Assembly (NCBI GenBank): GCA_018714625.1
Contig: DVNE01000021.1
Coordinates: 1 to 44,421 of the forward strand
Origin: Candidatus Coproplasma excrementigallinarum
GTDB taxonomy: Bacteria; Bacillota; Clostridia; Christensenellales; Borkfalkiaceae
Direction: 5' to 3'
Length of the DNA: 44,421 bases
Below are positions 4,360 through 34,472 of this stretch, piece by piece. The first letter of the stretch is position 1. Each line of letters opens with the position of its first letter. The notes beneath the pieces were generated by a model. The model did no database searches. It was not told the origin of the DNA and worked only from the letters and a program-made list of their open reading frames with translations. The position numbers and the translations under genes were made by a program.

Positions 4360-5712
4360 ATGAAGATAAGAATATTGCTTATTTCCGTACTGATAACCTT
4401 TGCGGGCATACTTGCCTATTCGCTGGTGTCTACGGAACTGTTCTATTATTCCTCTCTTGAGGGCACGCGCCAGACGCTCAGCGTATATATGAACGCATAT
4501 TCGGGCGACGAATATACGCTTACCCAGTCCGCTGCCGACAGCTTTTCAGAGCAGCTTGAAGGCGCGCGCGTAACATTTATAAGCTCCGACGGCACAGTGC
4601 TTGCCGACAGCGAGGCCGAAGACATAAGCGAAAACCATTCTGAAAGGGAAGAGGTTGACTCGGCCATTGCGGAGGGCGAGGGCTACGCGGTAAGGCGGAG
4701 CGCCACTCTGGGAGTGGACTTTGTTTATTACTGCCGCAAGATGCCCGCGCAGGACGGGTTTTATCTGGTAAGAATAGCCGTACCCACTACCAGCGAGTGG
4801 GCGCTGTTTGCAGAATTTTTGCCCACCGTGGCAATATATCTTGTGATTGACCTGCTGGCGTGCGTACTGTTTACCTATGTTGCAACCTATTTTATTCTTC
4901 GCCCCGTAGAAAATTTAACCTGCCAGGCGGCGCTGTCCGACCGAATAAATACGCGCTACAAGGAACTTAAACCGCTTGCGGAGATACTCAACGACCGCAA
5001 CAAGGATATAGAGAGGAAAATGAACGAGCTTAAAGAGGAGAAGGAACTTGTGGAAAGGGCGCAGAATTCAAAGAACGAGTTTATCTCTAATATAACTCAC
5101 GAAATGAACACACCGCTCACCTCTATAAGGGGGTATGCCGAACTGCTTGCGTCCGGAATGATGAGCGAAGAACAGCAGGCGGCGGCATACAAGACCATTT
5201 TAAAGCAGAGCGAGCGGCTTACAAACCTCATTGCCTGCATAATAAACTACAACGAAATCGACAACAGCAATGTGCCCTCGTGCGAGGTAGACCTTTCAAA
5301 ACTGGCCAAAGAGATGCTCGCCGTAGTAAAGCCCGAAGCCGATAAGCGCAAAGTCACCCTCATAGATAACATAAGCGACAATGTGATAGTGCAGAGCACG
5401 CACGAGCGCATGAGCGAGCTTGTGGGTAACCTCATCCGTAACGCCATACGCTACAACAAGGAGGGCGGCCTTGTAAAGGTTACGCTTGACTTCGAGCATT
5501 TCGAGGTCGCCGATACCGGCATAGGTATATCTAAGGAAAACCTCAGCAAGGTGTTCAGCAGGTTCTTCACGGTGGATAAATCGCACAGCGGCAAAAACGG
5601 CGGTTTCGGCCTCGGCCTTGCAATGGTAAAAAAGATTTGCCTGCGCGAAGGCTGGAAAATTTCCGTAAAGAGCGAAGAGGGCGTCGGCTCTACATTTACC
5701 GTAAAGTTTTAA
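4360..5712 (+). CDS. Sensor histidine kinase, PhoR-like by context
   Basis: This 450-residue membrane kinase should phosphorylate the upstream regulator. Two membrane segments (about 5-27 and 153-180) flank an extracytoplasmic region of ~125 residues. A short linker and coiled helix (about 195-235) lead to the HisKA domain with His247 (NITHEMNTPLTSI). The HATPase domain shows the N box (GNLIRNAIRYN), G1 (VADTGIGIS), F box and G2 (GFGLGLAMVK). There is no obvious cytoplasmic PAS domain. The start is ATG 4360 with a GGAG that lies in a hairpin. It is followed by a strong terminator, so the gene ends its own unit. The kinase call is firm; the phosphate role is inferred. Confidence 0.92.
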   Translation: MKIRILLISVLITFAGILAYSLVSTELFYYSSLEGTRQTLSVYMNAYSGDEYTLTQSAADSFSEQLEGARVTFISSDGTVLADSEAEDISENHSEREEVDSAIAEGEGYAVRRSATLGVDFVYYCRKMPAQDGFYLVRIAVPTTSEWALFAEFLPTVAIYLVIDLLACVLFTYVATYFILRPVENLTCQAALSDRINTRYKELKPLAEILNDRNKDIERKMNELKEEKELVERAQNSKNEFISNITHEMNTPLTSIRGYAELLASGMMSEEQQAAAYKTILKQSERLTNLIACIINYNEIDNSNVPSCEVDLSKLAKEMLAVVKPEADKRKVTLIDNISDNVIVQSTHERMSELVGNLIRNAIRYNKEGGLVKVTLDFEHFEVADTGIGISKENLSKVFSRFFTVDKSHSGKNGGFGLGLAMVKKICLREGWKISVKSEEGVGSTFTVKF

Positions 5713-5744
5713 AATCTGAGCAAAAACTTTTATCTATGTTTTTT

Positions 5745-6776: not shown

Positions 6777-7664
6777 ATGAAAAAGATTGCAAAAGTATTG
6801 GCAGTAACAGCAGCGTGCGCTGCAATGACGGGTACTGTGGCAGCCTTTGCAGGCTGCGGTGGAACTACCGACATAGTTATAAGCGGTTCTTCTTCGGTTA
6901 CTCCCCTTATGGAGGTGCTTGCCGCCGTTTACGAAATTGAAGAGGGCAAGACCATTTCCATCAACCAGAGCGATTCCGGTACAGGCGTAAACGAGGCTAT
7001 CTCGGGCGCAAACGATATAGGCATGGCTTCCCGCCTTATAAAGCAGGGCGAGCTTGACCAGGGAATCAAGGCCGTAACAATCGCTCAGGACGGTATTGCG
7101 CTTATAGTAAGCGAAGATTGCCCCGTTGAAAGCGTTACAATCGAAGAAATCACCAACCTCTACACGAGCGGCACAGCAATAGACGGTTCAATCACCGCGG
7201 CTATCACCCGTGAAGATGGTTCAGGCACGCGTGACGCATTCGAAGAGCTGTTCGAGGTTGAGTCCTACGATTCCGGCGTAGACGAGCAGAGCTCTACGGG
7301 CGCAGTTATAACGGCAATAGCCAACGACCAGTCAAATTCCATGATAGGTTATATCTCGCTCGGCTCACTTTCAAGCGCAGAGGAGCAGGGCTGCAAGGCT
7401 CTTTCAATAGAGTATGCCGCAGAGGACGGCTCCACGACCACCGTTGAGCCCACCGTTGAAAATGTACAGAACGGCACATACGGCGCAGCAAGGTACTTCC
7501 AGCTTGCCATCAAGAAGGATATGGATACCAACTCCGACGCATACCAGTTTATTGAATGGATAAAGGGTTATATGGGGCAGTCGGTTGTGCTTTACGAAGG
7601 CTATGTACCCGTATACTATACCTTCAATGAAGTGGAGTTTGTTGAACCTACACCCAATGCATAA
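6777..7664 (+). CDS. pstS: Phosphate ABC transporter substrate-binding lipoprotein
   Basis: This 295-residue extracytoplasmic protein captures phosphate for the Pst importer. It has a basic, hydrophobic signal peptide ending in FAGC, so Cys27 is probably lipidated. The mature protein opens with VISGSSSVTPLME, the phosphate-binding loop of PstS, and has the second signature TREDGSGTRDAF near residues 143-154. AAGGAG at 6758-6763 lies 13 nt from the ATG, longer than usual. pstC-pstA begins 26 bp after the stop, so pstS, pstCA and pstB form one operon. The Pho-box-like promoter upstream suggests starvation induction. Confidence 0.95.
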   Translation: MKKIAKVLAVTAACAAMTGTVAAFAGCGGTTDIVISGSSSVTPLMEVLAAVYEIEEGKTISINQSDSGTGVNEAISGANDIGMASRLIKQGELDQGIKAVTIAQDGIALIVSEDCPVESVTIEEITNLYTSGTAIDGSITAAITREDGSGTRDAFEELFEVESYDSGVDEQSSTGAVITAIANDQSNSMIGYISLGSLSSAEEQGCKALSIEYAAEDGSTTTVEPTVENVQNGTYGAARYFQLAIKKDMDTNSDAYQFIEWIKGYMGQSVVLYEGYVPVYYTFNEVEFVEPTPNA

Positions 7665-7696
7665 CTTAATCAGTTAATAATCGGGAAAAAGTGATT

Positions 7697-9670
7697 ATGA
7701 AAAACGCATCAGCCAAAGAAAGATTTGCAAACGCCTTTTCAAAGGAAAACTTTGGAAAGGCTTTTACAAGAGAAAATATAATGAAGGGTGTATTCATAGC
7801 GCTTGCCGCCGTTTCCATAATTGCGGTATTCGCCATAGTAATATACCTTTTGTGTGCCAGCATAGAGCCCTTCCGCGAGGTAGGTTTCTTTAAACTGCTG
7901 TTCGGTACCAAGTGGGACCCTAGCGCAAGCCAGACCTACGAAACGAGTGAATACGGCATACTGCCCATGATAGTAAGCACTATAGTACTTACCGTGTGCG
8001 CGGTTGTCGTCGGCGGTACGATAGGCGTGTTTGTGGCAATATTTATGGCATACTACTGCCCCAAGCCCTTAAAGGGCGTATACAAGCAGGTCATAAACCT
8101 GCTTGCAGGCATACCCTCTATCGTTTACGGTTTCTTCGGCATGGCGGTAATACTGCCCATGCTCCAGAAAATCTTTAACGTCAGTTCGGCTACCGGACTT
8201 CTCGGCGGTACAATCATTCTGTCCATAATGATGGTGCCCACGATAGCGTCGGTTGCCCGCAACAGCCTCGAGGCCGTGCCCTCCAACTATTACGAAGGCG
8301 CGCTTGCACTCGGCTGCAGCAAAAATCAGGCGGTGTTCAAAGTCTGCGTGCCCGCTGCCAAAAAGGGTATTGCGGCCGCACTCATACTCGGCGTAGGCCG
8401 TGCCGTAGGCGAAACCATGGCCGTACAGTTTGTAATAGGCAACACCACCAACGGCTATCCCACCGGTCCTTTTGCAGGATTTGCAACGCTCACTTCAAAG
8501 ATGGTGCAGGAATTCGGCTATGCCCAGCCCGATAAAAAATCGGTGTTCCTGGCCTGCGGATTTGTGCTCCTGGTGTTCATTCTTATAATAAACCTCTGCA
8601 TAATGGCCGTCCGCCGCGAGGGCAAAAAGGGCAGGGGCGGCACCAACAAATACTTCACCCGCCGCGTAAAGGGCGAGGGCGATTCGGTACAGACCGCCTT
8701 AAATTACAGAAGAACGGGCAGCGTGCAGGATATTCTCTGGATTTTGACCTATATTATAGCCACGCTTGTTGCAGTAGTTCTTCTTACGATAGTGGTATAT
8801 ATCTGCATAAAGGGCGTGGGTAATTTAAGCCTTGACTTCCTCTTCGGCGAAAGCCGCAACGGACACACAACGCTCGCTCCGGCATTCGTATCTACGGGCA
8901 TGCTCATCGTGCTTGCGCTTGCAATAGCCCTGCCGCTCGGTATTGGTGCGGCAATATACCTCAACGAATACGCTAAAAGAAACAATTTCTTTGTAAAGAC
9001 GGTAAGGCTTTTTGTGGATACGCTCGCGGGAATTCCCTCGATAGTGTTCGGCCTCTTCGGCTACCTGGTATTCACCCAGACGATAGGCTATACCTTGCTC
9101 GGCGGCGGCATAATACTCGCGCTCATAATCCTTCCTACCATAATCCGTTCGGTGGAACAGTCGCTTTCAGAAGTGCCCGACTCCATGCGCGAGGCAAGCT
9201 ATGCCCTCGGCGCAGGTAAGGTGCGCACTATATTCCTTGTAGTGCTTCCCTCCGCTCTCGCAGGTATAGTTACCTCTATAATACTTTCAATCGGCAAAAT
9301 TGTTTCAGAGAGCGCTGCGCTCATATTTACGGCCGGCAATGTAGTATATATGCCCACAAGCTACCTTTCCTCAGGTTCAAGCTTTGCAGTATATATGTAC
9401 AAATTCATGAACGAGGGCCTCGGCTTCGGTTCGTGCTATGCAACGGCGGTAGTGCTGCTTGTAGTTGTAATAATTCTCAATATGCTTGTAACGCTTGTTG
9501 AGTGGCTCGGCGACAGAGATAAGGGCAAACCTCATCCCATACTTGCAATCAAACAGTTCTTTAAGGAGGCCAAGGCACGGCTCGGAGGAAAGAGGAACAG
9601 AGCGCGTGGCGAAGGTCAGGCCGAAGACCCCTCAGAGGGCAGCGGCAAGCTTGCAGGTGCAGAAGACTGA
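7697..9670 (+). CDS. Fused phosphate ABC permease PstC-PstA
   Basis: One 657-residue chain carries both membrane subunits of the Pst importer. The first half (about 25-310) is PstC-like, with VGRAVGETMAVQFVIGNTT. A linker of about 35 residues follows. The second half (about 345-615) is PstA-like, with DTLAGIPSIVFGLFGYL, an EAA-type loop (REASYALGAGKVRT) and IVSESAALIFTAGN. Both halves keep the EAA loop that contacts PstB. A charged tail of ~40 residues ends the protein. In most bacteria these are two genes of ~300 residues each. There is no frameshift or stop at the junction. GTG at 7691 is an alternative start, and no strong Shine-Dalgarno is present. Confidence 0.93.
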   Translation: MKNASAKERFANAFSKENFGKAFTRENIMKGVFIALAAVSIIAVFAIVIYLLCASIEPFREVGFFKLLFGTKWDPSASQTYETSEYGILPMIVSTIVLTVCAVVVGGTIGVFVAIFMAYYCPKPLKGVYKQVINLLAGIPSIVYGFFGMAVILPMLQKIFNVSSATGLLGGTIILSIMMVPTIASVARNSLEAVPSNYYEGALALGCSKNQAVFKVCVPAAKKGIAAALILGVGRAVGETMAVQFVIGNTTNGYPTGPFAGFATLTSKMVQEFGYAQPDKKSVFLACGFVLLVFILIINLCIMAVRREGKKGRGGTNKYFTRRVKGEGDSVQTALNYRRTGSVQDILWILTYIIATLVAVVLLTIVVYICIKGVGNLSLDFLFGESRNGHTTLAPAFVSTGMLIVLALAIALPLGIGAAIYLNEYAKRNNFFVKTVRLFVDTLAGIPSIVFGLFGYLVFTQTIGYTLLGGGIILALIILPTIIRSVEQSLSEVPDSMREASYALGAGKVRTIFLVVLPSALAGIVTSIILSIGKIVSESAALIFTAGNVVYMPTSYLSSGSSFAVYMYKFMNEGLGFGSCYATAVVLLVVVIILNMLVTLVEWLGDRDKGKPHPILAIKQFFKEAKARLGGKRNRARGEGQAEDPSEGSGKLAGAED

Positions 9671-9693
9671 AAGGAGAAAAAGGATAACGCATT

Positions 9694-10584
9694 ATGTTTT
9701 TAAAGAAGAAAGAAAAGACCGCCGAAAGTGCGGATAAACCATTGGACGAAGCCATAAAAGAGATGGACGCCACTGAAGAAAAAATCGAAAAGAAGAGGGG
9801 AAGGCGCGTCGAGAATTTTGTTATCGAAGACGGAATTGCCATCACCATAAAGAACATGAACCTCTATTACGGAAGTTTCCAGGCTCTTAAAAACATCAAC
9901 ATGGAAATTCCCGAAAAGAAGATAACGGCATTCATAGGCCCTTCGGGCTGCGGTAAGTCCACGCTCATAAAATCGCTCAACCGCATGAACGACCTTGTGG
10001 AGGGTTGCAGGATAACGGGCGAAATCTGCATAGGCGGTACCAACATCTACGACAGAAAGACCGACCTTGCAATGCTCAGGAAGAACGTGGGCATGGTATT
10101 CCAGCGCCCCAACCCCCTTGCCATGAGCGTGTATGATAACATAGCCTACGGCCCCCGCACGTTCGGCATACGCTCCAAGTCGGTGCTGGACGGCATTGTG
10201 GAGACGTCGCTCCGCGGCGCGGCAATGTGGGACGAACTCAAAGACCGCCTCGGCAAATCGGCGCTCGGTCTTTCTGGCGGACAGCAGCAGAGGTTGTGCA
10301 TAGCGCGCGCCCTTGCAGTTGAGCCGCAGATACTTCTGATGGATGAACCTACTTCCGCGCTCGACCCTATCTCTACCGGCAAGATAGAGGAGCTGTGCAT
10401 GGACCTTAAAAACAGGGTCACTATAGTTATGGTTACGCACAATATGCAGCAGGCCTTCCGTATAGCCGATAAAACCGCCTACTTCCTTTTGGGCGAGATG
10501 GTTGAAATGGGCGATACCAAGGAACTGTGGGCTCACCCCAAGAACAAAAAGACGGACGACTATATCAACGGCAGATTTGGTTGA
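9694..10584 (+). CDS. pstB: Phosphate ABC transporter ATP-binding protein
   Basis: This 296-residue cytoplasmic ATPase drives the Pst importer. It has Walker [10 protein letters not shown] (82-90), the signature [16 protein letters not shown], Walker [14 protein letters not shown] and the switch His in MVTHNMQQA. The sequence [20 protein letters not shown] is typical of PstB rather than other ABC ATPases. A lysine/glutamate-rich N-terminal extension of ~45 residues precedes the usual start of the fold; it is unusual but in frame and begins with a proper ATG. The gene starts 23 bp after the fused permease. No phoU follows, unlike the common pst operon; a terminator comes next. Confidence 0.96.
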
Positions 10585-25609: not shown

Positions 25610-25648
25610 ATATTGCGTCTTGCAATCGGTGCCGCAATATGCTATAAT
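25610..25648 (+). promoter_or_regulatory. Promoter with inverted repeat for the GNAT-TIR operon
   Basis: TTGCAA (25620-25625), 17 bp, TATAAT (25643-25648). Exact 8-base inverted arms ATATTGCG (25610-25617) and CGCAATAT (25633-25640) flank the -35, an operator-like arrangement. The spacer also resembles a dispersed palindrome copy (25624-25643). Confidence 0.65.
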
Positions 25649-25708
25649 AAAAGCAGAATTTTTGTTTTTTCTGCGCGATTGCGCGCAGGCTGAATATCTG
25701 GTGGGAGT

Positions 25709-26818
25709 ATGGAAGAATTACTTATAGAGCGCGCGTCCTGCGGCGAGCTCGAAGAGATTTACGGCGCAATGCAGCGCAGTTTTCCGCAGGAGGAATTACG
25801 CGACTTTGCCGACCTTTCGCGCGTGTTTGTAATGCCCGAATACGGCGTGTATCACATTGTCTTCGGCGGCGAGCGTGTGGGATTTACCGGCATATGGCAG
25901 CTTGAGGGGTTTGCGTTCATAGAGCATTTTGCGATATCTTCGGCCTCGCGCGGGCACGGGCTTGGCAGCCTTGCCATAAAGGAGTTACAGCGCAAGTTCG
26001 GCAGAATTGTGCTCGAGATAGAGCCTCCCGTAGACGAAATAACCACGCGGCGCTTTAATTTTTACAGCAGACTTGGTTTTGTAATGAACGACGTCCCCTA
26101 TCTTCAGCCGCCGTACAGGGCGGAGGACGAGCCGCTGCCGCTCAGACTTATGAGCTACCCTGCCGCATTGACCTCGCCCGTTCCCGTCATAGAGCAAATA
26201 TATAAGGTTGTATACGGCCGCAGCGGCGGGCTTACAAGCTTTTTAAAGGTGCGCAAGCTTGCCGAGGGCGACGACCTCGCCGCCGTGGCGCATTTAATCT
26301 ACAAGACTGACGACTATGTGTTCCCCTTTATGTTCAAGGGCAGGGAAAAGGACGCCGTGCCCGTGTTCACTGCTATGATAGGGCGCAACACTCTATACAA
26401 CGCCGCCAACATCACCGTTGCCGAGCTTGCCGGCAAAATAGTTGGCATAGTTGTTTCTCTGCCTGCGCCCATAACTGTTTCGCCCTCCGAGATGATGGAT
26501 TGTTTCCTGCTTTCGGGGCAGGTGGTGGACGAAAACTTTACGCAGGTTTATAACGAATACTACAAGCCGCTCGAAAACGAGCCCTCGGGCATATACATAG
26601 CCAATGTGTGCGTGGACGGGGCTTACAGAGGTATGGGCATAGCCCGCCTTATGCTTTCACAAATTTTGCGCGACGATAAGACATATAATCTCGAAACGGT
26701 AAAGGGCAACGAAGCTGCGTTCAGACTGTACAGCGGGTTGGGGTTCAAGGTGCTCAACGAATACCCTGGCTTTACGAATGTACCATGCTACCGTATGCGC
26801 AGGGAGAAGAAGGAGTGA
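25709..26818 (+). CDS. Tandem GNAT-domain N-acetyltransferase
   Basis: This 369-residue protein contains two acetyl-CoA-dependent acetyltransferase folds. The first (about 1-150) has the pyrophosphate-binding loop RGHGLG after FAISSAS. The second (about 175-365) has VCVDGAYRGMGIARLML and ends with the GNAT motif B pattern AAFRLYSGLGF. Both acetyl-CoA loops look intact. The substrate is unknown; GNATs modify proteins, small molecules, antibiotics or tRNA. A GGGAG precedes the ATG. The TIR gene starts four bases after its stop, and that gene's AAGGAG lies inside the last GNAT codons, so the two are co-translated. Confidence 0.9.
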   Translation: MEELLIERASCGELEEIYGAMQRSFPQEELRDFADLSRVFVMPEYGVYHIVFGGERVGFTGIWQLEGFAFIEHFAISSASRGHGLGSLAIKELQRKFGRIVLEIEPPVDEITTRRFNFYSRLGFVMNDVPYLQPPYRAEDEPLPLRLMSYPAALTSPVPVIEQIYKVVYGRSGGLTSFLKVRKLAEGDDLAAVAHLIYKTDDYVFPFMFKGREKDAVPVFTAMIGRNTLYNAANITVAELAGKIVGIVVSLPAPITVSPSEMMDCFLLSGQVVDENFTQVYNEYYKPLENEPSGIYIANVCVDGAYRGMGIARLMLSQILRDDKTYNLETVKGNEAAFRLYSGLGFKVLNEYPGFTNVPCYRMRREKKE

Positions 26819-26822
26819 AATT

Positions 26823-28136
26823 ATGGACGTTTTTATAAGTTACGAACATCAGTCTAAATCCATTGCAGATAACATCTGCGCCGTGCTCGAATCCAAGGGT
26901 ATACGGTGTTGGTACGCCCCGCGCGACGTCTATGGCGATTACGCTACCTCCATTGTGGAGGCGATAGAAAGTTGCAAGGTATTCGTGCTGATACTCAACT
27001 GCGACTCCTCCAACTCGCCGCACGTTCTCAACGAGGTGGAAATAGCCTACCAGCGTATTCTCAAGGGCGAGATAGCAATAGTGCCGTTCAAGGTGGATGC
27101 GGGCCTGCTTTCAAAGGCAATGGAGTACTACGTAAAGCGCCTGCACTGGATAGACGCAGTCAGCGCACCCTTGGAAAAGGCGATAAGTCAGCTCTATGAA
27201 CAGCTCGTGCCCATTCTGGGCATAAAGGAGCAGCCTGCCGCTCCCTCGGCCGAGGCGCAGCCTGTAAATACCGACCGCAAGGGCGTAACTTACTATTCCC
27301 CCGACGACTTTGTAGAGATGCAGAGGCTTCAGTTGGAGGACGAGCTGCTGTTTGAGTATGAAAAACCGCTCTACGATAAGCTCATGTTCGATAAGGAGGG
27401 GCTGGACGTGCTCGACCTCAGCGTGCTCAATCCACGCTCCACGATAAGGCGGTTCAATCGTGCCGAAGTCAAAAACGTCGTCGCGCTTTCTTACAGCGAC
27501 GGGGTGATTGCCGAGGGCAACGACCTCTCTTCGGAAATGGAGGGGATAGGCTTTTATAAGTTCAACCCCGCGCAGGACAGCGTTTACGACGACCTTCCGC
27601 CCATAATGCACAAGGCGGGTGTGGAACAGTTCGACCTGATAAACCTCACCATGGCCTTCCTCGATTTAAAAAATCCTTTTAAAACGCTCAACCGCCTCAA
27701 AAAGTTTTTGCGGCCGGGCGGAATGATGTTCGTCCGTGATGTGGACGACGGCGTGGTGTTTGCCTACCCCGACCGTGATAAACTTTTCGAGCAGTTTAAA
27801 GAGTTCTATAAGTACGATACTCTGAGCGGCTCGCGCAACTCCGCAAGGCAGGTCTTCAATGTAATGAAGAAGTTGGGCGCAAAGCAGGTAAAGCTTGAGC
27901 GGTGCGGCATAAATACCGCGTCTATGGACTACGACCATAAGAGGTTGCTGTTCAAAAGCTGGTTCTCGTTTATTCCAAACGATTTCCGTCAGATTCTTAA
28001 GGAGCAGCCAAACAACGAAAAGGCCAAAGAGGTTATGAATTGGGTGGACGAGTACTATGACGACCTCGAAGAGGAGTTTTTCGGCGACGATTTTCTTTTC
28101 AACAGCGGGTATTTTATTTATACCGTATTGTTCTGA
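26823..28136 (+). CDS. TIR domain fused to a degenerate methyltransferase fold
   Basis: This 437-residue protein starts with a bacterial TIR domain (about 1-130): MDVFISYEH, RCWYAPRDVYGDYA and SPHVLNEVEIAYQ, with Glu71 in the position of the NAD-cleaving glutamate. A Pro/Ala linker (about 133-153) leads to a class I methyltransferase-like domain (about 158-437). Motif I is degenerate (VLDLSVLNPRS, no GxGxG), but FDLINLTMAFLDLKNP and LKKFLRPGGMMFVRDVDDG are clear. Catalytic activity of either half is unproven. AAGGAG at 26810-26815 supports ATG 26823. Partnered with the tandem GNAT. It could be a defence effector, a signalling protein or a NAD/SAM sensor. Confidence 0.85.
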   Translation: MDVFISYEHQSKSIADNICAVLESKGIRCWYAPRDVYGDYATSIVEAIESCKVFVLILNCDSSNSPHVLNEVEIAYQRILKGEIAIVPFKVDAGLLSKAMEYYVKRLHWIDAVSAPLEKAISQLYEQLVPILGIKEQPAAPSAEAQPVNTDRKGVTYYSPDDFVEMQRLQLEDELLFEYEKPLYDKLMFDKEGLDVLDLSVLNPRSTIRRFNRAEVKNVVALSYSDGVIAEGNDLSSEMEGIGFYKFNPAQDSVYDDLPPIMHKAGVEQFDLINLTMAFLDLKNPFKTLNRLKKFLRPGGMMFVRDVDDGVVFAYPDRDKLFEQFKEFYKYDTLSGSRNSARQVFNVMKKLGAKQVKLERCGINTASMDYDHKRLLFKSWFSFIPNDFRQILKEQPNNEKAKEVMNWVDEYYDDLEEEFFGDDFLFNSGYFIYTVLF

Positions 28137-28324: not shown

Positions 28325-28371
28325 TAATGCGCGAGCGGCGGAAAATTTCCGCCGCTCGCGCATTAATTTTT
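28325..28371 (+). terminator. Terminator after the TIR-methyltransferase gene
   Basis: A perfect 20-bp stem (28325-28344 with 28346-28365) with only one unpaired central base on paper. The flank that follows has a short T run (28367-28371). Confidence 0.78.
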
Positions 28372-28406
28372 GGTGTGCAGGTTTCTTTATTTTATATTTG
28401 AGCTGT

Positions 28407-28512
28407 GCCGTAAATGGGGGTTATGCCGTAAATGGGGGTTATGCCGTAAATGGGGGTTATGTCGTAAATGGGGGTTATGTCGTAAATGGGGCTGTGCCGT
28501 AAATGGGGTTGT
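28407..28512. repeat. Tandem repeat, six copies of an 18/17-bp unit
   Basis: Unit gccgtaaatgggggttat. Copies start at 28407, 28425, 28443, 28461, 28479 and 28496; copies 4 and 5 have gtcg for gccg, and the last two are 17 bp with GGGG. A decayed seventh copy follows. Each unit has a G5 or G4 run on the plus strand. No flanking duplication or gene is evident. Confidence 0.92.
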
Positions 28513-32570: not shown

Positions 32571-34472
32571 ATGAAAAAGCAAACAGAAAAGCAGAGCGAT
32601 AAAGCCACCCAGACAACCGAACAGACTGCTGCCGCCGCGGGCAGCGCAGGGGATAGCGACGTAGCCGTAGAATTCAGCCACGTCAATTTTTCGTACGACG
32701 AGCAGTCTGCTCCCGCGCTTTCAGACCTCTCTTTAGAGGTTAAAAAGGGCGAATTTCTCGCCGTGATAGGTCACAACGGCAGCGGCAAGTCAACGCTCGC
32801 CCGCCTGATAAACGGCCTGCTCCTGCCCGATTCGGGCACGGTTTCGGTTTTCGGCCTCAAGACTTCAGACGGCAAAAACCCGATAAAGATACGCAAGCGT
32901 GCGGGTATAGTATTCCAGAACCCCGATAACCAGATGGTCGCCTCGATAGTGGAGGACGATGTGGCTTTCGGCCCCGAAAACCTGGGTGTCCCGCGCGAAG
33001 AGATAGGCAAAAGGATAGACTGGGCACTTAAATCCGTCGGCATGGAGGCCTTCCGCGAAAGCACTCCCTCGCGCCTTTCGGGCGGACAGAAACAGCGCAT
33101 AGCAATAGCCGGCGTGCTTGCAATAAAGCCCGATATCATAATTCTGGATGAATCCACTGCCATGCTCGACCCCAAAGGCCGCCGCGAGGTTATGTCCGTC
33201 GTGGCGCGCCTCAATAAAGAGGAGGGCATGACGGTAATACTCATTACTCATTTCATGGAGGAGGCGCTGCTTGCAGACAGGCTGGTCGTGCTCAACTGCG
33301 GCCAGCTGGTAATGCAGGGCACTCCCGCCGAAATATTTTTGCACAGCGAGCGGCTGGAGGCGTACAACCTCAGCCTGCCGCGCATAGGCAGGATATGTAA
33401 GTCTTTGCAGAAGGCGGGCATACCCGTTGCCGACTGCCTCTCTCCCGAAGTGCTCGCCGAGGAGATTGCCAGCGCCGCAGAAAAGATGGGCGCTAATTCT
33501 CATTCGGCGGCATATATCCCGCAGGCAATTAAGGAAAATTTCCACGAATGGGATATAGATATAAGCAACCTGACCTTCACCTATTCGGCAAAATCGCCTT
33601 TTGCGTCAAAGGCGCTCAAGGGCATCAACCTGCACATAGGCGAGGGGCAATTTTTCGGCATAATAGGCCATACGGGAAGCGGAAAATCTACTTTGGTGCA
33701 GCACCTCAACGCGCTTATAAAGCTCCCGCAGGCGCAGAAGCATTACCATGCCAAAAAGCCTAAAAAGGGACAGCCTGCACCCGTTAATCCCGCCATATCC
33801 GTGGGTCAATTCAATCTTGCAGACAAAAAGTGCAACTTTCTGAAACTGCGCGAAAGTGTGGGAATGGTATTCCAGTACCCCGAATATCAGCTCTTCGCCG
33901 AAACTGTTTTCGACGATGTGGCTTTCGGCCTTAAAAATTTCAGAAAGGGCATATCCGCGGAGAACACGGAGGCCGCCGTGCGCGCCGCAATCGAGATGGT
34001 TGGCCTCTCTTATGAAGATGTCAAGGGCAAATCCCCCTTCGACCTTTCGGGCGGACAGAAGAGGCGCGTTGCCATTGCCGGCGTAATAGTCACCCGCCCG
34101 CACATACTCATTCTGGACGAGCCCGCCGCGGGACTTGACCCGCTCGGCAAGCAGGAGATAATGGATTTGCTGCACAAAATTCACCGCGAATGGTGCAGCA
34201 CAGTAATAATCGTTTCGCACGATATGGACGAAATTGCCGATAACTGCACTATGGCGGCGGTAATTTCAGACGGAATTGTGGCCGACTGCGCCGAGCCGCG
34301 CGTGCTGTTCAGAAAGGCGGAGGAGCTCACCTCCCTCGGCCTGGATATTCCGCTCACGGCAAAGGCGGCCGCCCGCCTGAGCGAGCTTGGGTACAGCGTG
34401 GATACCGACTTCACCTGCGAAGATTTTTCGCAAAAAGTAATAAGTATGTTCGGGGGTGAAAGCAATGCTTAA
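32571..34472 (+). CDS. Fused ECF transporter ATPase (EcfA1-EcfA2)
   Basis: This 633-residue protein joins the two ATPases that power energy-coupling-factor vitamin importers. Domain 1 (about 30-285) has Walker A GHNGSGKST (near 67-75) and LSGGQKQRIAIAGVLA. Domain 2 (about 330-620) has Walker A GHTGSGKST (near 366-374) and LSGGQKRRVAIAGVI. Both have Walker B with a catalytic Glu (LDEST, LDEPA). Domain 2 carries a Lys/Pro-rich insertion (HAKKPKKGQPAPVNP). The hydrophilic N-terminal ~25 residues are unusual. Most Bacillota encode two genes in this same order before ecfT and truA, so this is a fusion. No substrate-binding S subunit is in the window. Confidence 0.93.
   Translation: MKKQTEKQSDKATQTTEQTAAAAGSAGDSDVAVEFSHVNFSYDEQSAPALSDLSLEVKKGEFLAVIGHNGSGKSTLARLINGLLLPDSGTVSVFGLKTSDGKNPIKIRKRAGIVFQNPDNQMVASIVEDDVAFGPENLGVPREEIGKRIDWALKSVGMEAFRESTPSRLSGGQKQRIAIAGVLAIKPDIIILDESTAMLDPKGRREVMSVVARLNKEEGMTVILITHFMEEALLADRLVVLNCGQLVMQGTPAEIFLHSERLEAYNLSLPRIGRICKSLQKAGIPVADCLSPEVLAEEIASAAEKMGANSHSAAYIPQAIKENFHEWDIDISNLTFTYSAKSPFASKALKGINLHIGEGQFFGIIGHTGSGKSTLVQHLNALIKLPQAQKHYHAKKPKKGQPAPVNPAISVGQFNLADKKCNFLKLRESVGMVFQYPEYQLFAETVFDDVAFGLKNFRKGISAENTEAAVRAAIEMVGLSYEDVKGKSPFDLSGGQKRRVAIAGVIVTRPHILILDEPAAGLDPLGKQEIMDLLHKIHREWCSTVIIVSHDMDEIADNCTMAAVISDGIVADCAEPRVLFRKAEELTSLGLDIPLTAKAAARLSELGYSVDTDFTCEDFSQKVISMFGGESNA

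Follow-up and report, generated by a model that had tools for sequence, protein, structure and literature searches.

The GNAT-TIR operon and its surroundings

The window, that is the whole 44,421-nt stretch analysed, carries what looks like a two-gene operon on its forward strand. The upstream gene (25709..26818) encodes a fused double-GNAT protein of 369 aa; the downstream gene (ATG at 26823, stop at 28136) encodes a 437-aa protein in which a TIR domain is joined to a putative pseudo-methyltransferase. The sequence-only reading of this DNA had described a double-GNAT gene followed after 4 bp by a TIR gene, and the ORFs (25709-26818 and 26823-28136) agree: 4 bp separate the GNAT stop from the TIR ATG. 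A mechanical ORF caller gives 26778 as an alternative start of the TIR gene; in seven close relatives the first start of the TIR frame is the equivalent of ATG 26823.

A promoter-like site, TTGCAA-17-TATAAT (25620-25648, forward strand), is recognised by its match to consensus only and is statistically weak, with one site found versus 3.8 from the shuffled stretch. Its -35 element lies between the arms of a perfect 8-bp inverted repeat, ATATTGCG/CGCAATAT (25610-25617 and 25633-25640, within 25610..25648, forward strand). A promoter with an inverted repeat at the -35 had been described before, and its sequence is confirmed. The repeat was rejected as a conserved operator: an upstream alignment of seven loci, including the window, contains no conserved repeat, and there is no clear conservation upstream of the six relatives. 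A strong intrinsic terminator (28325-28365, annotated as 28325..28371, forward strand) has 19 pairs followed by a T run. The GNAT and TIR genes thus bracketed look like a single transcription unit. Just 3' of the terminator there is a tandem array (28406-28508) of 5.8 copies of an 18-bp unit.

The window genome has 1.43 Mb in 60 contigs and is 75.7% complete. The neighbours of the operon are metabolic: an aldose epimerase, a flavodoxin, a carboxymuconolactone decarboxylase and a cupin, together with pyruvate:ferredoxin oxidoreductase, a cobalt/ECF-type transporter and tRNA modification genes. It had been claimed that no defence genes adjoin the operon, and a PADLOC scan of ten neighbours bears this out. 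Nine are matchless; the ABC ATPase of the cobalt/ECF-type transporter (32571-34472) has ATPase matches, which are ABC cross-matches, and it was rejected as a defence gene.

The TIR domain

The TIR domain spans residues 1-135 (26823..27227, forward strand) and is matched by Pfam TIR_2 (E 6e-18). Relatives were collected in a family set of 51 TIR-methyltransferase genes from 49 loci. Glu71 (27033-27035, forward strand), proposed earlier as a candidate NAD-cleaving residue, aligns with the helix glutamate column of tir-1 and Cat1; this conserved Glu of the C helix, expected of catalytic TIR NADases, is kept in 51/51 family TIRs. Its position is thus that of a catalytic-type residue.

In AbTir, a Trp four residues before the Glu (WxxxE) is reported to be needed for 2'cADPR production (PMC11374754). 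Residue 67 of the window TIR is His, which makes a cyclase activity doubtful; linear ADPR or another compound may be formed instead. Eight of the 51 family members have Trp at this position. The TIR domain is by far the most constrained part of the module, with a mean identity of 87%, compared with 61% for the methyltransferase half, 55% for GNAT2 and 45% for GNAT1. Where dS could be estimated, no domain reaches a dN/dS of 1 (range 0.009 to 0.37); each domain was covered by up to three pairs, some of them with dS undefined or close to saturation. Several TIR types sit on the same methyltransferase-like C-terminal domain.

The methyltransferase half and loss of the SAM site

Residues 158-437 (27294..28133, forward strand) form a degenerate class I methyltransferase domain. 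Pfam methyltransferase models match it below cut-offs only (Methyltransf_23, E 1.7e-4), and its predicted structure has a clear class I methyltransferase fold, in line with the likeness first suggested from the letters. The features of an active class I SAM methyltransferase are missing: motif I reads LDLSVLNPRS (27411-27440, forward strand), in which the glycines are absent, and Ser223 replaces the strand-2 acid. A conserved DDG occupies residues 308-310.

A tree built from the methyltransferase half groups the window gene with those of seven relatives in one clade (100/99). The strand-2 acidic residue is missing in all eight members and present in 42/43 other genes; position 204 is Pro in 8/8 and Gly in 38/43 others; Gly200 is retained in one of the eight (L009) versus 41/43 others. 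Motif I had been called degenerate, and this holds, with the loss being derived within the family. The SAM site is also lost in L204, which is sister to the window clade, and the glycines are lost in L194, which is placed elsewhere in the tree. Asp308-Asp309 and Arg338 are retained in 51/51. The domain is thus a SAM enzyme by ancestry which lost its cofactor site and kept residues outside it. The idea that a degenerate copy is always accompanied by a canonical copy in the same genome was rejected; genomes G486 and G487 each showed a single copy.

Distribution and genomic context

A contig scan for relatives of the window protein gave 11 loci, and some relatives are labelled Christensenella and Christensenellaceae, which would suggest the order Christensenellales. 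Matches at E <= 1e-30 occur in 13/93 genomes of the genus and in 40/396 of the order; the order count also takes in rows with a TIR alone or a methyltransferase alone. In 391 genomes drawn from the class (E <= 1e-15), the full architecture is found in the window genome only; one relative outside the order (L107) is a stand-alone methyltransferase. The distribution is patchy, with the degenerate copy in 3/93 genus genomes plus two other families. TIR-only and methyltransferase-only matches were removed before counting, and L014, L015, L034 and L057 were excluded as duplicates of the L003/L004 loci. Also outside the counts are several order-level matches and G516:C11, which has just the methyltransferase part.

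Many relatives sit among ordinary-looking genes, as judged by eye. Defence-type company is found at L011, and comprises an AbiL-like ATPase, a weakly RloB-like protein, Cas9 and Cas1; in this region (L011:1-8324) the TIR-methyltransferase gene lies between the AbiL-like/RloB-like pair and the Cas9-Cas1 genes. At L204, a GNAT-TIR-pseudo-methyltransferase pair is preceded, at a distance of about 1 kb, by a gene for a NACHT protein with DUF4062 (L204:1559-5269). In one relative, L004, the TIR operon is immediately followed (7436-10111) by genes for an FAD oxidoreductase, which by eye looks nadB-like, for quinolinate phosphoribosyltransferase (nadC) and for a 3H-domain regulator. A mobile origin was considered and rejected: the plasmid collection has no match to the TIR-methyltransferase protein, phage records have one match covering the TIR part only, and a scan of viral contigs with a single pattern around the DDG motif found none.

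GNAT proteins and their linkage to TIR genes

Pfam finds two GNAT stretches in the 369-aa protein (PF00583, E 2e-17): GNAT1 (about residues 1-174) and GNAT2 (about residues 175-369). The GNAT fold and the RxxGxG/A loop of acetyltransferases are present, as judged from Pfam, the GNAT2 model and alignment. The predicted structure covers GNAT2 only, because the alignment of the fused GNAT set GNAT1 rows on the GNAT2 half; the two best fold matches of the model are named just as acetyltransferases, without a substrate. The tandem GNAT noted from the sequence is real in the window, but the fusion is not general: it is found in the window only, and in relatives the halves are separate genes. GNAT2 alone is constant, lying directly upstream of the TIR-methyltransferase gene in 8/8 loci of the close clade; GNAT1 is found in six of the eight. 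A duplicate GNAT1 gene (L006:3592-4122) occurs upstream of one GNAT1-GNAT2-TIR operon.

Neighbours were called by a simple ORF caller, and were counted as immediate when on the same strand as the TIR-methyltransferase gene with a gap of up to 60 bp. The 51 genes have 29 immediate neighbours, of which 17 are GNATs, three are RimK-type ATP-grasp enzymes and two are RyR-domain proteins. Among 100 genes drawn at random from 272 other genes of the same loci there are two GNATs (17/29 vs 2/100; Fisher p 1e-11); counting each related cluster once gives 6/18 vs 2/100 (p 1e-4). The sample included GNAT1 of L009 as well as a GNAT at L049 that lies some 400 bp away from a TIR-methyltransferase gene, and these are probably the two control GNATs. 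L047, L201 and L049 have GNATs that were left out of the immediate count; the one at L047 is 441 bp away. In one clade of the tree (81/92, a branch without strong support) a GNAT adjoins 14/14 genes, as against 3/37 of the others. A conserved GNAT-TIR linkage beyond this strain, as the sequence-only reading would require, thus exists: it holds in all loci of the window clade and extends to at least three families of the order.

A GNAT is not a fixed companion of the TIR-methyltransferase architecture, since 34/51 genes are without an immediate one. The partner GNATs fall into about five groups whose mutual similarity is weak at most; cross-matches between groups are few and weak (20-29% identity over longer stretches, and one of 42% over 24 residues). 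Because the groups are barely similar, recruitment of GNATs beside TIR-methyltransferase genes seems to have recurred. At L200, the gene 13 bp upstream of a TIR-methyltransferase gene (4363-5718) encodes a fusion of a GNAT with a class I tRNA synthetase domain.

A reverse search with a GNAT2 profile against 396 order and 391 class genomes gave 22 distinct loci. Five of these (L209-L213) are profile seeds, and the search is to that extent circular and non-independent. Of the 17 non-seed loci, ten have a directly adjoining TIR gene, and in the other seven no TIR lies closer than about 1.5 kb. L218 is a near-copy of L219, as is L222 of L223, and the TIR frame of L221 is interrupted. None of the ten TIR genes encodes a TIR-methyltransferase. 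They encode TIR-X proteins (L214, L218, L219, L221-L226 and L228; e.g. L225:369-1481), which were first reached via a specificity control, in which 51 TIR loci without a methyltransferase domain had three GNAT matches by a local profile of uncalibrated sensitivity. Compared by profile with 23 pooled GNATs, the C-terminal domain of TIR-X shows a weak likeness to them (probability 76, E 2e-5); against GNAT2 by itself, three rows give 15.5 (E 0.002). The CoA-binding loop is missing in nine aligned TIR-X C-terminal domains; the tenth protein is that of L221. Domain X has no sequence match in PDB and is tentatively a pseudo-GNAT. If this likeness holds, one kind of live GNAT seems to have come together with two different dead-enzyme-like tails.

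RyR-domain proteins in related loci

Long RyR-domain proteins are encoded in 4/49 TIR-methyltransferase loci. At L045 (the L004 locus) a RyR protein is followed by a canonical TIR-methyltransferase, GNAT1, GNAT2 and a degenerate TIR-methyltransferase; at L046 a RyR protein is followed by a TIR-methyltransferase and an ATP-grasp enzyme. At L101 and L190 the RyR protein is some kilobases off the TIR-methyltransferase gene. The proteins beside TIR-methyltransferase genes (L045:10951-13236 and L046:8964-11231) have about 755 aa, with an HD-like start (E 0.04) and a DprA/SLOG-like end (E 0.06-0.1), both recognised from weak matches and motifs by eye. There is a second RyR match, below cut-off, at L190:3578-5446, and L141:6834-7304 encodes a small RyR-domain protein of 156 aa that Pfam matches strongly (E 1e-33).

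RyR domains are found in 11/19 genomes searched (long proteins in eight, short ones only in three) and in 0/14 control genomes. None is found in the window genome, which is 75.7% complete, or in seven of the other 18 genomes. Within 10 kb of TIR-methyltransferase genes there are three RyR genes vs 0.15 expected in the 19 genomes, the limit having been chosen post hoc. Because the window genome shows no RyR domain, this evidence concerns the TIR-methyltransferase family rather than the window operon.

A 2026 preprint describes phage RyR-domain proteins as binding or cleaving 2' and 3' cyclic ADPR, and gives the ligand residues of RyDEP as H75, W78, H100 and D117 (PMC13232231). In the RyR proteins examined here, H525, W528, H555 and D572 are invariant (6/6 aligned). 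Matched without alignment to RyDEP, they come in the order of its residues, with identical H-W and H-D distances.

Comparison with known systems

Like Thoeris, the window has a TIR with a catalytic-type Glu in a compact operon, and the RyR proteins of some relatives carry a weakly DprA/SLOG-like end. Unlike Thoeris, the operon has no adjoining ThsA-type effector among the neighbours scanned, its TIR is fused to a methyltransferase fold, and its partner is a GNAT; PADLOC ThsB models match the window TIR at E 4e-4 only. SPARTA (TIR-APAZ/pAgo) was rejected, as the C-terminal half is a methyltransferase fold and not APAZ, and the partner is a GNAT and not an Argonaute. TIR-SAVED and other TIR-sensor fusions similarly join an N-terminal TIR to a C-terminal domain, but the PADLOC SAVED5 match (E 2e-7) covers window residues 2-77 only, and membership was rejected on the degenerate methyltransferase fold of the C-terminal domain. 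The Methanosarcina mazei methyltransferase 3mgg and the stand-alone relative L107 are without a TIR, unlike the window protein; L107 matches methyltransferase models well above cut-offs.

The RyR proteins resemble phage RyDEP (PF02026) in keeping the order and spacing of its four ligand residues (PMC13232231). They differ in being bacterial, in their length of about 755 aa, in their weakly HD-like and SLOG-like parts, and in being encoded beside a TIR rather than by a phage. The window operon itself consists of GNAT and TIR genes only. GNAT toxins with an RHH antitoxin have, by definition, a small DNA-binding antitoxin gene in the operon, and a GNAT toxin/antitoxin assignment was rejected on this point. 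TIR immune enzymes, GNATs and methyltransferases are each known; no description of a TIR-methyltransferase-GNAT system, and none of such a combination with SAM-site loss and recurrent GNAT linkage, was found in the literature searched.

Possible function

TIR enzymes are common to bacterial, plant and animal immunity. Starting from the operon, the folds, the conserved Glu, the SAM-site loss and the GNAT linkage, all read from sequence, we tentatively favour an explanation which is possible rather than probable: an NAD+-consuming immune TIR may be gated in two ways, by its pseudo-methyltransferase and by an acetylation, through the GNAT, of either the protein or a sensed ligand. The GNAT-TIR pair would then be a two-gene immune-type module in which the TIR domain cleaves NAD+ and is restrained by its own C-terminal domain. 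The latter, an ex-methyltransferase with its SAM site gone, would now serve as a sensor or docking domain. GNAT2 (and GNAT1 where present) would use acetyl-CoA to acetylate the TIR protein or the ligand of the pseudo-enzyme; acetylation might act as a switch by setting the TIR threshold, and phage may be the trigger. The GNAT2 linkage in 8/8 loci of the window clade, the GNAT enrichment, the ten of 17 non-seed GNAT2 loci with an adjoining TIR, the invariant Glu, Asp308-Asp309 and Arg338, the constraint on the TIR, the patchiness and the defence-type company in some relatives, RyR proteins among it, argue for this explanation. Against it count the lack of a defence gene by the window operon, the ordinary-looking surroundings of many relatives, and the plasmid, phage and viral searches, which are empty save for one TIR-only phage match. 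The 34/51 genes without an immediate GNAT, three of which have an ATP-grasp ligase instead, and the seven of 17 GNAT2 loci without a TIR also count against it, and the non-Trp residue before the Glu weakens certainty on the TIR chemistry.

An unlikely alternative is that the TIR makes an ADP-ribose derivative, which a GNAT, ATP-grasp enzyme or active methyltransferase domain acylates, aminoacylates or methylates, and which RyR proteins read or destroy. The partners are indeed group-transfer enzymes (GNATs, RimK-type ATP-grasp enzymes in 3/29, and a GNAT-class I tRNA synthetase fusion), and the SAM-site acid is retained in 42/43 other family members. Long RyR proteins in 4/49 loci point the same way, as do the three within 10 kb vs 0.15 expected in the 19 genomes at the post hoc limit, and the 6/6 invariant residues, which by order and spacing, without alignment, match the RyDEP ligand residues (PMC13232231). 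But RyR is not found in the window genome (75.7% complete) and in seven of the other 18, three of the 11 RyR-positive genomes have short RyR proteins only, and the window's own methyltransferase site is degenerate. Moreover, the TIR signals described so far are not known to need an acetyl group.

It is rather unlikely that the pair is non-immune, with the TIR acting as a protein-interaction module in a regulatory or scaffold protein and the pair serving housekeeping modification. Ordinary surroundings in the window and many relatives, and the lack of a mobile-element sign in the collections searched, would suit such a role, but the catalytic-type Glu persists in 51/51 across diverged TIRs, presence is patchy, several TIR types occur on one C-terminal domain, and some relatives have defence-type neighbours. 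More improbable still, the two genes may form a pair of toxin-antitoxin-like or abortive type, with an NAD+-depleting TIR kept in check by the GNAT and with the nutrient or acetyl-CoA state, not phage, as trigger. The close spacing of the two genes between a promoter-like site and a terminator of their own, the patchy distribution, and the L004 module just upstream of the FAD oxidoreductase, nadC and the 3H-domain regulator are consistent with it. However, the 34/51 genes without an immediate GNAT indicate that a GNAT is not generally needed to survive the TIR protein, and the NAD-gene neighbourhood is seen in one locus only.

A wider reading, less likely than the gated immune TIR, is that of a TIR immune family in which control of the TIR would pass through the dead domain of a metabolic enzyme, methyltransferase-like or GNAT-like, together with a live group-transfer enzyme dedicated to it, and which would read acetyl- or methyl-group metabolism or emit a capped ADP-ribose signal for RyR-domain proteins. 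How TIR enzymes stay off and switch on is the general question addressed here. By the comparative evidence, the TIR goes with a degenerate-enzyme tail and with an acetyltransferase that is intact; the gene pair points to an undescribed control of a bacterial immune enzyme. The operon is small enough for a role of acetyl-CoA in TIR control to be tested directly. The RyR proteins of some relatives connect chromosomal bacterial TIR genes with a domain that in phages is reported to bind and cut cyclic ADP-ribose.

Other TIR loci

Clusters at L101 (4522-15497) and L192 combine a TIR protein with an ORF that by eye resembles a KGGSGR-type ATPase and with proteins of 640-780 aa; Pfam gave no significant match to the corresponding ORFs of L013. 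Another TIR protein, with a C-terminal domain of about 300 residues, is encoded at L043:5300-6601; a ROK kinase and an ORF that by eye looks HAD-like are nearby.
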